The notes below the pieces were generated by a model. That model did no database searches and was not told the origin of the DNA. It saw nothing but the letters and a program-made list of their open reading frames with translations. A stretch of DNA of 64,000 nucleotides from a virus, in IMG/VR virus record IMGVR_UViG_3300030108_003783, positions 62,001 to 126,000 of that record; one strand, 5' to 3'. The first letter of the stretch is position 1. Every line of letters begins with the position of its first letter. Shown here piece after piece: positions 4,245 to 31,664 of the stretch. The translations under genes and the position numbers were made by a program.

Positions 4245-4541
4245 ATGGCAAAGAAAATTAAAAAGACAGCTAAGAAAGTTGTAAAAAAAGTTTTAGATAA
4301 AACGCAATTAGATGAAAAAATCGTTGCAGAGTACAAAGAAAATAAAACTCTGATAGATACTATATTGTGCTATGTTAAATGTTATGGTGGTTACGTATTA
4401 GCTATAGGAGCTGGTTGCTCATTTGGAGTAACTTGGAAATTATGGTTACCACTTTTAATTGGATCAGCTGCTTGGGCTTATTGGCAAGTATGTAAATGTA
4501 AAGCTTGCAAAGTAAACAGCGGCACTTGTTGTAATGGATAA
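4245..4541 (+). CDS. Small cysteine-rich membrane protein, 98 aa
   Basis: The N-terminus is very basic (MAKKIKKTAKKVVKK), followed by an amphipathic helix, two hydrophobic segments at about residues 46-62 and 65-80, and a C-terminal cluster with CKCKACK and CC. Eight cysteines in 98 residues are unusual for this genome and may bind metal or form disulfides. An AAGGAAGA element precedes the ATG. The last 8 nt overlap the thermonuclease gene. Function unknown. Confidence 0.6.
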   Translation: MAKKIKKTAKKVVKKVLDKTQLDEKIVAEYKENKTLIDTILCYVKCYGGYVLAIGAGCSFGVTWKLWLPLLIGSAAWAYWQVCKCKACKVNSGTCCNG

Positions 4542-10207: not shown

Positions 10208-10810
10208 ATGTATACAAGAGAACAGGTTGAAGCTGCCGTAAAAGCTAAAGGGTATAAATGGTTTGAAAATGGTGATTACAATGTTAATATAGTTGGAATC
10301 AGAAATATGTCTGTTGGTGACAGAGTAACAAATAAATTTGATGATCACTTAACAATATCTTATAAAGTAGACGGGGAATGGTGTTATGAAATATTTAATT
10401 GCACTACTGATCCAGGTGATGATTGGATGGATAAACCAATGCTAGAAAAAGGCTGTGCTATATTAGTACCAGGTCAATACAGAGGTTCACACAAATTAAG
10501 ATTACACCAGGGAAGATATTTAGCTTTAGGACAGCAAAGACCAGTTAAAGTTTATAGAGATAGAGATAAAGATGGTAAATATGATTTTGATCCTTCAACA
10601 ATAGACGAAGGTTTATTTGGAATCAATATTCATAGAGCAACTAAACATGCTGGAAAAACTTCTACTTATGTAGATAAATGGTCTGCAGGTTGTCAAGTAA
10701 TTGCAAGTAACGATGATTGGCATTGTTTCTTAGATATATGTCAAACAGCAAGAGATACTTGGAATAACAATTTTACATATACATTACTTGAATCTACTGA
10801 CCTAACTTGA
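10208..10810 (+). CDS. Putative endolysin, L,D-transpeptidase-like (YkuD-type) hydrolase
   Basis: The 200-residue protein carries GINIHRA (His142) and, 20 residues later, WSAGCQV (Ser159, Cys162). This H-x(n)-S-x-G-C pattern is that of YkuD/L,D-transpeptidase-like cysteine enzymes acting on peptidoglycan. There is no signal peptide, so release through the preceding holin-like protein is plausible. An Asp-rich DRDKDGKYDFD loop may bind calcium. The stop TGA is part of the next late motif. It could instead be a virion cell-wall enzyme. Confidence 0.5.
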   Translation: MYTREQVEAAVKAKGYKWFENGDYNVNIVGIRNMSVGDRVTNKFDDHLTISYKVDGEWCYEIFNCTTDPGDDWMDKPMLEKGCAILVPGQYRGSHKLRLHQGRYLALGQQRPVKVYRDRDKDGKYDFDPSTIDEGLFGINIHRATKHAGKTSTYVDKWSAGCQVIASNDDWHCFLDICQTARDTWNNNFTYTLLESTDLT

Positions 10811-16569: not shown

Positions 16570-18459
16570 ATGGGTTATACAAAATCAAACAATTTTTCTT
16601 CTTTCTGGTTAGATGGTTCTAACAATATAGATATCCTAACTGGAGAAAAGATTTCAAGTGGTAAAGATTACATCAAAATGGCTTCAACATTAAAAGCTAT
16701 CGGAAACTTTGTTAAAATCGTTTCTGGTAATGATGTTAAAGTTGAATATAGCAATAGAGATGAATCTTACACAGATGGTAAAACAGTTACTATCACTTCA
16801 AAAGTAAACGGTAAATCATTTGATTCTACTGTTGGTCTTGCTTTACACGAAGGATCTCACGTTAAATTATCAGACTTTAGTTTACTTAAACATTTAATGA
16901 GTTACCAAGGTAAAGATTTATTAAAAACAAGATTTAATTTCGAAATCACTGATGATATGGAATTAAAAGGTTTATCAGTTATGATGCTTAAAGACCTTAT
17001 CAATGTTATCGAGGATAGAAGAATCGATTATCATATCTTTACTACTGCTCCAGGTTATCAAGGTTATTACAATGCTTTATACGATAGATACTTTCATGCT
17101 AAAGTAATAGATAAAGCTATATTATCTTCAGAGCATAGAGAAGAAAATATTCAATCTTACATGTTTAGAATTATTAATATAACTAATTCAAACAGAGATT
17201 TATCTGCTCTTAAAGGTTTAAAAGAAATTTACAATATAATCGACCTTGCTAATATTTCAAGATTAAAAACAACAGGAGAGGTAATTGAAACAGCTATTAA
17301 GGTTTTCAAAGCTTTAGATAAATACATTCCAATTACAACACAAGATGGTGAATCAAAAACTACTGGTAAAGATAAAAAATCAGATTTATCTCCAAATGAA
17401 AAAAGCAAGTTAAAAAAAGCTATTCAAAAGCAAAAAGATTTCATCAGAAACAATATTCAAAAGTCTTCTATACGTAAATCAGAAAAGAATAAAATAAATG
17501 CTATTAATAGCTCAAAAGCTACATACGAAAAAGTTGGTGATCAATTTCAAAGTCACTGGCTTAAATCTTCTGGAGTTGATTGCTTAGTTGTTAGAAACAT
17601 AAACAAAGCTGTTATCAATTCTAATATCTTTGAGACTATCAAATCAGAAGGTCATTACTATCACAGAACAAAAGACAATCAAGAATCTATCGATAGAGGT
17701 ATTACATTAGGTACTCAGCTTGGTAGAAAGCTTCAAGTTAGAAATGATTCAAGAAGCTTACAATTCAATCGATTAAATCAAGGAAAGATTGATAAAAGAA
17801 TGATTGCTTCAGCTGGTTTTGGTAATGAAAATATATTTCAACAAGTTTTTATTGACAATCACAAAGATGCTAATGTTCATATTTCCATTGATGCTTCTGG
17901 TTCTATGTCAGGTACAAAATGGGACAAATCAATAACATCAGCAGTTGCTATTGCTAAAGCTGCTTCAATGGTTGGTAATTTAAATGTTACTATATCTTTC
18001 CGTTCAACAGAGCAACAAGGAAAGAAATACATTCCAGCTATTTTCATTGCTTACGATTCAAAGGTTGATAAAATTTCAAAGATTCAAAATCTATTTAAAT
18101 ACATCACTTGTCCTGGTACTACACCAGAAGGTTTATGCTTCGAAGCTATTCAAAGAGAAATCGTTCAATCTTCAAACAATTTAGATAGTTACTTCATAAA
18201 CTTTTCAGATGGTGAACCTTATTTTGAAAATGGACAAATTCAATACTGGGGAGATTCAGCTGCAAAACATACAGCAACTGAAATCAAAAAGTTTAGAGAT
18301 AAAGGTATCAAAGTTTTATCTTACTTTATTACTGGTTCTGATGAATCAACAACTTCATCCAATTTTAAAACTATGTACGGACCAGATGCTAGCAATGTTA
18401 ACGTCAATAATCTTAATCAGTTAGCTAAAACGCTTAACAATATGTTTATAGAGAAATAA
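16570..18459 (+). CDS. VWA-domain protein with HExxH metallopeptidase-like N-terminus (CobT-like)
   Basis: The 629-residue protein has LALHEGSHVKL at about residues 90-100, a zinc-binding HExxH motif, then a long helical charged middle. The C-terminal von Willebrand A domain has the MIDAS signature DASGSMS at 441-447, CPGTTPEG as the threonine loop and NFSDGEP as the third element. In known systems such proteins pair with a MoxR/CobS-type AAA+ ATPase, one of which lies at 23657 with the same operator arrangement. Together they may form a metal-inserting or remodelling machine; cobalamin-related cobS occurs in marine T4-like phages. Substrate is unknown. It is not in an operon with the ATPase, so shared control matters. 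Confidence 0.75.
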   Translation: MGYTKSNNFSSFWLDGSNNIDILTGEKISSGKDYIKMASTLKAIGNFVKIVSGNDVKVEYSNRDESYTDGKTVTITSKVNGKSFDSTVGLALHEGSHVKLSDFSLLKHLMSYQGKDLLKTRFNFEITDDMELKGLSVMMLKDLINVIEDRRIDYHIFTTAPGYQGYYNALYDRYFHAKVIDKAILSSEHREENIQSYMFRIINITNSNRDLSALKGLKEIYNIIDLANISRLKTTGEVIETAIKVFKALDKYIPITTQDGESKTTGKDKKSDLSPNEKSKLKKAIQKQKDFIRNNIQKSSIRKSEKNKINAINSSKATYEKVGDQFQSHWLKSSGVDCLVVRNINKAVINSNIFETIKSEGHYYHRTKDNQESIDRGITLGTQLGRKLQVRNDSRSLQFNRLNQGKIDKRMIASAGFGNENIFQQVFIDNHKDANVHISIDASGSMSGTKWDKSITSAVAIAKAASMVGNLNVTISFRSTEQQGKKYIPAIFIAYDSKVDKISKIQNLFKYITCPGTTPEGLCFEAIQREIVQSSNNLDSYFINFSDGEPYFENGQIQYWGDSAAKHTATEIKKFRDKGIKVLSYFITGSDESTTSSNFKTMYGPDASNVNVNNLNQLAKTLNNMFIEK

Positions 18460-23656: not shown

Positions 23657-24856
23657 ATGAAGTACATTTTAAAAATTAATGATGTTACCGAAACAGTAAA
23701 CTGCTCTGTTGGTAAACATACATTTAGCTTTCCTCAACCGTTAGCTATTAAAAAAGCAAAAGCAGCTTTAAGAAAAGGCAACAACTTAACCGTTGATGCT
23801 ACTACTATAGAGTCTAAAGCTTTTGGGACTAGCTCTCAAAAAGTTAGCACATTCAAAAAAGTTCCAAAGGACTTAGAGCCTTTCTGGAACGAATATACTC
23901 CTCCGGTTAATCAAGAACATGCAGATATGATGTCATTCATACACAATGATTCTGTTGCTCTTAGACCTTCGCTATTAATGCTACCAGATCTTAAATGGAA
24001 ATATTTAATAAGGTCTGCAATGAGAGGAAAGAATATTATGATGACTGGAGCTGCTGGTTCCGGTAAAACAATGGCCGCTAAGGCACTGGCTAATTCATTA
24101 GATAGACCAGAGTTCTATTTCAATCTAGGTGCTACTCAAGATCCTAGAGCTACATTAGTTGGTAATACTCACTTCTCTAAAGATTCAGGGACTTTCTTCT
24201 CAGAGAGCTCTTTCGTCAAAGCTATTCAAACACCTGATGCTATTATTCTACTAGACGAGTTATCAAGAGCTCACCCTGAAGCTTGGAATATACTAATGAC
24301 AGTATTAGACCCAGGTCAAAGATACTTAAGATTAGATGAAGCAAAGGACTCACCTACTATTCAGGTTGCTAAGGGAGTTTGCTTTATCGCTACTGCTAAT
24401 ATAGGAAATGAATATACCTCAACAAGAGTTATAGATAGAGCCTTATTAGACAGATTTACAATTATTGAAATGGACCTTCTTTCAAAAGAAAAAGAAGAAA
24501 GCCTTTTACTTCAAATGTTTCCAGAAGCAGACAAAGACATGATTGCTAATATAGCTTCCATAGTATCTGCTACTAGAGATGAAATGAAAACTGAAATACC
24601 ACGTATTAGTACATCAGTTTCAACAAGAGCTTCAGTTGAATTTGCTTCTTTATGTTATGATGGCTTCTCACTCGAGGAAGCTGCATCGGTTACAGTATAT
24701 CCATTATACGATGATGCTGGTGGTCTTGATTCTGAAAGAACATTCATCAAACAGCTAGTTCAAAAGTTCATACCTGCTAATACGGATGAAAATTTATTTA
24801 ATACTGAGTCTGAAGAGGAATTATTCACTGAAGACGATATAAATCAAACAAGTTAA
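23657..24856 (+). CDS. MoxR/CobS-like AAA+ ATPase
   Basis: The 399-residue protein has Walker A GAAGSGKT at 131-138, Walker B IILLDELSR with D200/E201, a sensor region CFIATANIGNEY and an arginine-finger segment DRALLDRF. The LVGNTHFSKDSGTFFSES insert and the PGQRYLRLDE loop are typical of MoxR/CobS-type ATPases. These act as hexameric remodelers, usually with a VWA-domain partner; the partner is probably the protein at 16570, whose promoter has the same box pair. In marine T4-like phages cobS-like genes are common, though a cobaltochelatase role is unproven here. Confidence 0.82.
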   Translation: MKYILKINDVTETVNCSVGKHTFSFPQPLAIKKAKAALRKGNNLTVDATTIESKAFGTSSQKVSTFKKVPKDLEPFWNEYTPPVNQEHADMMSFIHNDSVALRPSLLMLPDLKWKYLIRSAMRGKNIMMTGAAGSGKTMAAKALANSLDRPEFYFNLGATQDPRATLVGNTHFSKDSGTFFSESSFVKAIQTPDAIILLDELSRAHPEAWNILMTVLDPGQRYLRLDEAKDSPTIQVAKGVCFIATANIGNEYTSTRVIDRALLDRFTIIEMDLLSKEKEESLLLQMFPEADKDMIANIASIVSATRDEMKTEIPRISTSVSTRASVEFASLCYDGFSLEEAASVTVYPLYDDAGGLDSERTFIKQLVQKFIPANTDENLFNTESEEELFTEDDINQTS

Positions 24857-30112: not shown

Positions 30113-30120
30113 AAGGAGGT
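30113..30120 (+). promoter_or_regulatory. Orphan perfect Shine-Dalgarno AAGGAGGT
   Basis: AAGGAGGT fully matches the anti-SD of 16S rRNA, but the nearest ATG is 43 nt downstream at 30164 and no good frame starts at the right distance. It may be a ribosome standby site or part of a leader structure. Confidence 0.35.
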
Positions 30121-30163
30121 AAGCCGAAAATCCTTTTTAGAGTAGGCACATTTTAAAAATTAT

Positions 30164-30727: not shown

Positions 30728-31013
30728 AGAAACTGTTATTACTATTATTAGTGAATGGGGAAAAGAGTTCACTGGTAATAGTACAACAGTAGATAAATAT
30801 GATAAAGTACTAAGTTTAATATCTTGCAATATTAAGTTATCTTCTGATAATAGAAATTTCGATTTAAAAGAAATGAGAATAGATAAATCTACTGTATTTA
30901 ATTATAAGATGAAGTATTCAACTACTGGTAATATAAGTAAAAATGATATTTCAGAATTAAATACTATTTTTCAGAAACATAAGAAAATTGCAAAATTGCT
31001 TACTAGTAACTGA
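30702..31013 (+). CDS. Hypothetical protein, 103 aa
   Basis: I use ATG 30702, since the earlier frame start at 30648 would overlap the previous gene deeply. The protein is polar and helical (LKETVITIISEWGKEFTGN). Its stop TGA is the first part of the TGATATTTAT motif that precedes the tmRNA. Function unknown. Confidence 0.5.
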   Translation: MANQSNNLKETVITIISEWGKEFTGNSTTVDKYDKVLSLISCNIKLSSDNRNFDLKEMRIDKSTVFNYKMKYSTTGNISKNDISELNTIFQKHKKIAKLLTSN

Positions 31014-31020
31014 TATTTAT
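31012..31020 (+). promoter_or_regulatory. Putative late promoter before tmRNA
   Basis: CTGATATTTAT overlaps the previous stop and sits 17 nt before the paired CTTATATT of the tmRNA acceptor piece. Confidence 0.45.
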
Positions 31021-31021
31021 A

Positions 31022-31250
31022 ATTGAATCGCTAGTACTTATATTAGCTGCATTTATGGACCCGGGTTCGACTCCCGGCATCTCCACTAAAAGATTTACAC
31101 GATATGGGGATGATTGGTTTTGACAGAATGATAAGGGTATAAGGATGATTCACTGCAACAACTGGCAAACAAGTTGAATATGCAATGGCTGCCTAATTAG
31201 GTACCCAGAGCAAACGGTTAACAGGGACCACGTCGTAAAAGTCCCGGAGG
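31022..31250 (+). ncRNA. ssrA: Circularly permuted tmRNA
   Basis: The usual 3' part comes first: T arm CCGGG-TTCGACT-CCCGG (31061-31077), then 3' acceptor strand CATCTCC (31078-31084) and A. After a 17-20-nt spacer comes the usual 5' part: GGGGATG (31106-31112), TGATTGGTTTTGACAG, and a tag frame. The two acceptor strands pair over 7 bp with the G3-U70 pair that marks alanine acceptance. GGTATAAG (31136-31143) pairs with CTTATATT (31037-31044) as helix P2. The tag starts at GCA 31155 and reads ATTGKQVEYAMAA then TAA, ending in the degradation-type YAMAA. A GGGAC/GTCCC stem follows. No T arm exists downstream, so the gene is permuted. Outer ends are approximate. Only 49 nt separate the acceptor from the tag, leaving little room for PK1. 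Confidence 0.85.
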
Positions 31251-31280
31251 TTAGAGGTAATAATATAAAGGAGTAATACT

Positions 31281-31664
31281 ATGACACAAGATGAATGGAA
31301 CAGTGCTGAAGAATATTTAGAAGGTTACATGTTAGATTTAACATACGAAATAGTTACTCAAAAAAGAAAATTAAAAGATCTAATAAATTCTGATGAAGAA
31401 GTAATATTATCTTACGACCCATTTTTAGTTGGAGAGATAGATCAAGTTTGGTTAATAGAAGATTTGATAGATTGGTATGTTGGCGAAGAGGAATACGAAA
31501 AATGCGCTGAGCTTTTAAAGTTGAAAATAAAAGTAGAAAAGGGTATTGTAGATTTAAGTAATATTATATACTTAAGAGATGAAGATTTTATAACTGCTCA
31601 AGAAGACAATGCAATAAAAGAGCTACTAAGAAATTTATTAGATAATAACTATAATAAAAATTAG
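31281..31664 (+). CDS. Hypothetical protein with EEYEKCAxLLxxK motif, 127 aa
   Basis: AAGGAG lies 8 nt before the ATG, just after the tmRNA. The middle (LIDWYVGEEEYEKCAELLKL) matches the protein at 29703, with an added helical N-terminus (EEYLEGYMLDLTYEIV) and C-terminal helices. The pair brackets the tmRNA region. Function unknown. Confidence 0.55.
   Translation: MTQDEWNSAEEYLEGYMLDLTYEIVTQKRKLKDLINSDEEVILSYDPFLVGEIDQVWLIEDLIDWYVGEEEYEKCAELLKLKIKVEKGIVDLSNIIYLRDEDFITAQEDNAIKELLRNLLDNNYNKN

Follow-up and report, generated by a model that had tools for sequence, protein, structure and literature searches.

A circularly permuted, phage-encoded tmRNA gene with its own tag was confirmed at the sequence level in a 64,000-nucleotide stretch of viral DNA (the window), which corresponded to positions 62001-126000 of the 133,730-base virus record IMGVR_UViG_3300030108_003783. 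The gene showed a permuted architecture, conserved pairings, a charging determinant and an open tag, and it was widely conserved in related viruses. We consider it likely that the RNA is functional and acts in trans-translation.

Identity and layout of the gene

ARAGORN in permuted mode reported a tmRNA* at 30993-31287 with the tag GKQVEYAMAA. With a cut-off of 47 bits, the Rfam model RF04321 (tmRNA_permuted) matched at 72.9 bits, and the E value for the 64 kb was 4.4e-12; therefore the match was not due to chance. Both searches had been named as checks in the original prediction, and both agreed with the order it proposed. The T arm (31061-31077) and the acceptor 3' strand (31078-31084) lay 5' of the acceptor 5' strand (31106-31112) and the tag (31164-31196). 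This order was the reverse of the standard layout (RF00023). A conventional T arm and acceptor 3' of the tag, which the prediction had given as evidence against permutation, were absent. The betaproteobacterial two-piece model RF01850 gave 42 bits against a cut-off of 84, with overlapping matches of the same clan lower still. The alphaproteobacterial and cyanobacterial models (RF01849, RF01851) were absent among the matches listed, which omit lower-scoring overlaps of the same clan; if they belong to that clan, they scored below 42 bits. Alanine identity was indicated by the predicted 7-bp acceptor with G3-U70, which was kept in 57/57 relatives, and by the invariant A73. The tag frame was open and ended in an alanine-rich stretch followed by a stop. 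Upon blastn of the tmRNA against phages, only short pieces matched. For the proposed span of 31012-31260, support for the 5' end lay at about 31024, and helices were supported as far as 31245. The features are as follows.

31011-31021, + strand: TGATATTTATA, candidate promoter element of the phage, immediately upstream of the tmRNA
31024-31029, + strand: PX helix, 5' strand, in the acceptor piece; pairs with 31147-31152, 6/6 pairs changed on both sides
31030-31047, + strand: acceptor-piece hairpin H1, GCTAGTA-CTTA-TATTAGC; 93% of cells paired, one-sided variation only
31037-31040, + strand: H1 loop CTTA, half of the inter-piece pseudoknot; pairs with TAAG at 31140-31143, 96% paired, 3/4 double changes
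31050-31054, + strand: P2, 3' strand; pairs with 31126-31130
31061-31077, + strand: T arm (CCGGG-TTCGACT-CCCGG); 100% paired in 57 sequences, two pairs with double changes
31078-31085, + strand: acceptor 3' strand CATCTCC and discriminator A73 (31085); CCA not encoded, CTA next
31086-31105, + strand: intervening sequence of 20 nt between A73 and G1, expected to be removed
31106-31112, + strand: acceptor 5' strand GGGGATG with G3
31113-31126, + strand: D-loop region ATTGGTTTTGACAG
31126-31130, + strand: P2, 5' strand, partner of 31050-31054
31140-31143, + strand: TAAG, coding-piece half of the inter-piece pseudoknot, partner of the H1 loop
31147-31152, + strand: PX helix, 3' strand, in the coding piece just before the tag, partner of 31024-31029
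31164-31196, + strand: tag frame GKQVEYAMAA-stop with the probable resume codon GGC, from ARAGORN and the frame comparison of 57 sequences
31214-31245, + strand: H-type pseudoknot 3' of the tag; S1 31214-31218/31232-31236, S2 31224-31228/31241-31245
31281-31664, + strand: next ORF after the tmRNA, at a short distance; 127 aa, with AAAGGAG in front

The element TGATATTTATA occurred 11 times in the 133.7-kb record, compared with 0.34 expected, and several copies stood just 5' of ORFs, including the tail-sheath ORF. This enrichment and position suggested that it is probably a phage promoter. Other copies were located at L096:16867 and L096:13348 and at 10809 and 56505 of the window. TATTTAT was present 5' of the tmRNA in 42/57 sequences. 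On the downstream side, an ORF similar to that at 31281-31664 was the first ORF in 12 relatives. A cluster of downstream ORFs from 47 contigs was rejected because it arose by single linkage, and only those 12 were directly similar to the ORF of the window. Three phages carried the Rfam DUF805b RNA motif near the tmRNA, no more than about 1 kb away (window 30113-30148, L004:2563-2597, L008:4347-4386). An Hsp20-like ORF, recognised by eye, stood just 5' of the tmRNA in some relatives (upstream ORFs of L007, L025, L031 and others). The window also contained a possible pair of CobT-like and AAA+ (CobS/MoxR-like) genes at 16570-18459 and 23657-24856, where the CobT-like match was weak.

Pairings between the two pieces and the tag

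Since the minimum free energy of the RNA was unremarkable (z = -1.4), covariation was used. The tested structure consisted of the tRNA-like helices and two pairings spotted by eye, and it was counted on alignment A2, which holds 57 distinct sequences chosen with GGC and an A at -4 as a requirement. Paired cells reached 94.3%, compared with 83.4% in shuffles and 39-50% in slid controls, and double-change cells numbered 187, compared with 51.7 and at most 41, figures that the slid controls flatter somewhat because the structure came from the same 57 sequences, and in which related sequences share changes. The double changes were many and of several types. Compensatory changes backed P1, P2, the T arm, PX and the inter-piece pseudoknot. 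P2 across the two pieces, as claimed in the original prediction, had double changes in 5/5 pairs.

The inter-piece pseudoknot joined the H1 loop to the coding piece, and CTTA/TAAG varied with GTTA/TAAT or TAAC among the relatives. An alternative pairing, in which the loop uses the earlier of the two TAAG copies, had weaker support than that with 31140-31143. This pseudoknot, built from both pieces, occupies the position of PK1 just 5' of the tag, and its likeness to PK1 is one of position. PK1 had been thought lost. Because covariation supported a pseudoknot at that site, PK1 looks replaced by the inter-piece pseudoknot rather than lost. For the pseudoknot 3' of the tag, a best-pseudoknot search of 55 sequences gave a mean score of 25.4, compared with 12.7 for shuffles. 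It was present in nearly all, with the compensatory variants ACGGU/GUCGU, ACGGU/ACCGU, GCGGU/GUCGC and CGGCC/GGUCG.

The tag had been proposed to start at GCA (31155), and this start was not borne out by the comparison. A GCA within 16 nt upstream of GGC was in frame in 13/57 sequences, only out of frame in 33/57 and absent in 11/57, and indels upstream of GGC shifted the frame between relatives. In contrast, the context (T/C)AA(C/T)N-GGC was constant in the 57 sequences, for which GGC with A at -4 had been a selection criterion. Because the GCA frame shifted while TAACT-GGC or a close variant stayed constant, the resume codon is most likely GGC at 31164 and the tag 10 aa long. The tags varied among members. 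Most had the strongly conserved core G(E/A/K/T)QVE(M/L/Y)AMAA, and AMAA was the end in most.

Longer tags of 36-37 aa were present in L003, L010, L015, L028, L029, L030, L040, L081, L082 and L102. Those of 37 aa were of one type with eight distinct alleles (for example GTQIKSVKAGIFASLAAIRLLATETVATEESVYAMAA). L102 added a further 37-aa allele, GKQVETVKAGIFASLAAIRFLATETVATEESVFAMAV, read from the sequence, giving nine alleles of exactly the same length. A 36-aa tag of another type was common to four contigs, and the two types looked unrelated beyond their ends. No Pfam family was matched by the long tags tested. A scan aimed at finding more of them, with its gap set too short, gave L003 only. 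The long tags were free of indels, and their codons were weakly constrained (pairwise dN/dS about 0.3 to 1, few above 1). The most frequent tag length is 10 aa (PMC11915505). We found no published maximum and therefore claim no record length.

Relatives, hosts and known permuted tmRNAs

A scan pattern built from the T arm, the acceptor strands and the D-loop was run on IMG/VR and found six contigs; a relaxed pattern found 75 other contigs with the same gene. The 75 contigs shared one layout: an acceptor piece containing the hairpin came first, then the T arm and the acceptor 3' strand, and after a short spacer the acceptor 5' strand, GG(N)TTTGAC and the tag. A pseudoknot followed in most of them, and L066, L069, L080 and L088 were clearly more divergent. 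CCA was encoded in some relatives, unlike in the gene of the window. Applied to 84,980 genomes of bacteria and archaea, the relaxed pattern gave one match, L010, on a Pelagibacter MAG contig. It was rejected as a cellular member because it was 99.7% identical to the viral contig L048, and the MAG carried another permuted tmRNA of its own. This sole match indicated that the class is viral within the reach of the pattern, which covers spacers of 6-36 nt and a TTTGAC D-loop.

The predicted Bacteroidota host was supported by core genes near those of Flavobacterium phage immuto (terminase 54%, capsid 49%, baseplate 40% identity). However, the closest named relative was Microcystis phage Mel-JY01 (57%, 51% and 49% for the same proteins), which made the host phylum less settled. 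Shine-Dalgarno use and GroEL gave no decision on the host; a GroEL-like phage chaperonin was present in the same virus record (L098:6443-8062). From the core genes, Bacteroidota is most likely the host phylum. Hosts of such phages would be expected to have an ordinary one-piece tmRNA. A search of immuto and Mel-JY01, the nearest cultured relatives, gave no permuted tmRNA, which indicated that the gene is not essential for such phages.

Compared with the permuted tmRNAs of alphaproteobacteria, betaproteobacteria and cyanobacteria covered by RF04321, the gene order, the tRNA-like domain, P1/P2 and the tag frame were alike. However, the gene of the window differed in the D-loop GG(N)TTTGACA, the glycine resume codon, the PX helix, the inter-piece pseudoknot and the part of the coding piece 5' of the tag, which was very short. 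Permuted tmRNAs were also found in Chryseobacterium phage MA9V-3 and the crAss-like phages cr50_1, cr53_1 and Bohxovirus. These likewise scored above the RF04321 cut-off and had a glycine resume codon, but differed in longer spacers (three of the four), in other tags (for example GNVIDINKYVAKLEVAA) and in belonging to other phage families. MA9V-3 and cr53_1 each showed a PX-like helix in the position of PX, as did the gut-type phage L009, in each case read from a single sequence. The D-loop motif GGTTTTGACAG and the T-arm sequence were shared with the Bacteroidota phages Calle_1 and phi38:1 of Cellulophaga. In contrast, the tmRNA of these phages is one-piece, in standard gene order, with a predicted 22-aa tag. 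This tag is predicted to end in AVGV and not in alanines (L105, L110), and the gene of phi38:1 is without annotation.

The original prediction overstated the novelty of a permuted tmRNA in a phage. Individual tmRNA genes of Bacteroidota phages are already annotated in GenBank, and 53 putative two-piece tmRNAs have been published among 133 unique phage tmRNA structures (PMC9004378). Methylophilales phage Melnitz, like the virus of the window a marine myophage, also carries a permuted tmRNA; according to its authors, this gene belongs with the SAR11/alphaproteobacterial lineage and is equipped with a glutamine riboswitch (PMC9004378), in both respects unlike the gene of the window. In the literature searched, which was limited in reach, we found no description of the virus-borne class. 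This class, the inter-piece pseudoknot, the 36-37 aa tags, the tRNA-Ala within the spacer and a phage that also carries SmpB look new.

Proposed function and alternatives

Here we infer the promoter, the processing, the charging, the use of host SmpB and the benefit. A precursor would probably be transcribed from the phage promoter just upstream. RNase P would cut before G1 (31106), and 3' processing would free A73 (31085). The acceptor piece and the coding piece would be held together by P1, P2, PX and the inter-piece pseudoknot. CCA would be added, and the host alanyl-tRNA synthetase would charge the RNA via G3-U70. Host SmpB and EF-Tu would then deliver it to ribosomes that had stalled on broken mRNAs, where the tag GKQVEYAMAA would be added to the stalled chain. 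The likely benefit is that ribosomes would be kept available in infection while mRNA is degraded. A search for SmpB gave none in the record of the window, and the RNA would thus depend on host SmpB. Nor was SmpB found in 45 further virus records, of which many were fragments. The 168-kb phage that carries L009 encoded a full SmpB (161 bits), and one other record gave a weak partial match. In that 168-kb contig, permuted tmRNA (L009:6425-6701, - strand) and full SmpB (L101:9413-9856, - strand) were present in one phage; the tag, read by eye, was GNKTSYAMAA. The same phage encodes a 771-aa protein (L101:427-2742, - strand) with a weak, below-cut-off match to a Cas12f1-like TNB domain.

The absence of SmpB from the record of the window would also fit a decoy that binds SmpB and stalled ribosomes, mainly displaces host tmRNA and alters the fate of tagged proteins. 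The tmRNA of mycobacteriophage DS6A, which consists of the tRNA-like domain only, inhibits host tmRNA (PMC4131195, PMC11915505), and the variable tags that mostly keep AMAA are consistent with such a role. However, nearly all members kept the mRNA half: the tag was open, its start context was fixed and a pseudoknot followed it, none of which a decoy would need. Because conservation extended to the tag half as well as to the charging features, a pure decoy is disfavoured, and we regard it as improbable. The tag itself might instead matter most, as its authors proposed for Melnitz (PMC9004378), if host nascent chains received a phage tag that sends them to a protease or another fate. The conserved core of the short tags and the exact length of the 37-aa tags across nine alleles point to this, but the weak constraint on the long-tag codons argues against it. 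Such retagging is possible though rather unlikely; it could be the main or an added role and does not wholly exclude ribosome rescue by trans-translation.

The short spacer raised the question of whether one continuous permuted RNA could work uncut. In that case, A73 would be joined to the spacer and have no free 3' end for aminoacylation. Three relatives carried a tRNA-Ala(TGC) within the spacer (L003:4786-4860, L008:3674-3748 and L102 at about 4464-4537, the last read from the sequence), which argued for spacer excision, and processing to a two-piece form is known for other permuted tmRNAs (PMC3985003). We therefore consider an uncut RNA very unlikely. A permuted tmRNA with a tRNA-Ala in its spacer, called unique, has been described in one nominally archaeal MAG, GCA-2688965 (PMC11915505). 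By description, it has the same odd feature as these three relatives, and we suspect that it may be a misbinned phage contig. The least probable reading, which we give hardly any weight, is a passenger or integration-site remnant without function. Its appeal lies in the lack of the gene in immuto and Mel-JY01, and tmRNA genes are common integration sites. However, the gene was complete and not a fragment, and the compensatory changes across 57 sequences indicated selection on the RNA, which contradicted this reading.

tmRNA permutation has been described for three bacterial lineages and mitochondria. We tentatively put forward, with a confidence just short of balanced, that the gene belongs to a fourth lineage, virus-borne and in Bacteroidota phages, in which an inter-piece pseudoknot stands in for PK1, the hosts have one-piece tmRNA and the 36-37 aa tags may serve beyond degradation. 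If this is true, a widespread viral class, likely in a phylum outside those lineages, would mean that phages carry and spread split tmRNA. The many natural variants could allow the parts that a tmRNA needs to be worked out. The viral class may also account for some puzzling records, among them the permuted tmRNAs of archaeal MAGs. The predicted phage-specific tags should be detectable by mass spectrometry, which would make the purpose of phage tmRNA directly testable.
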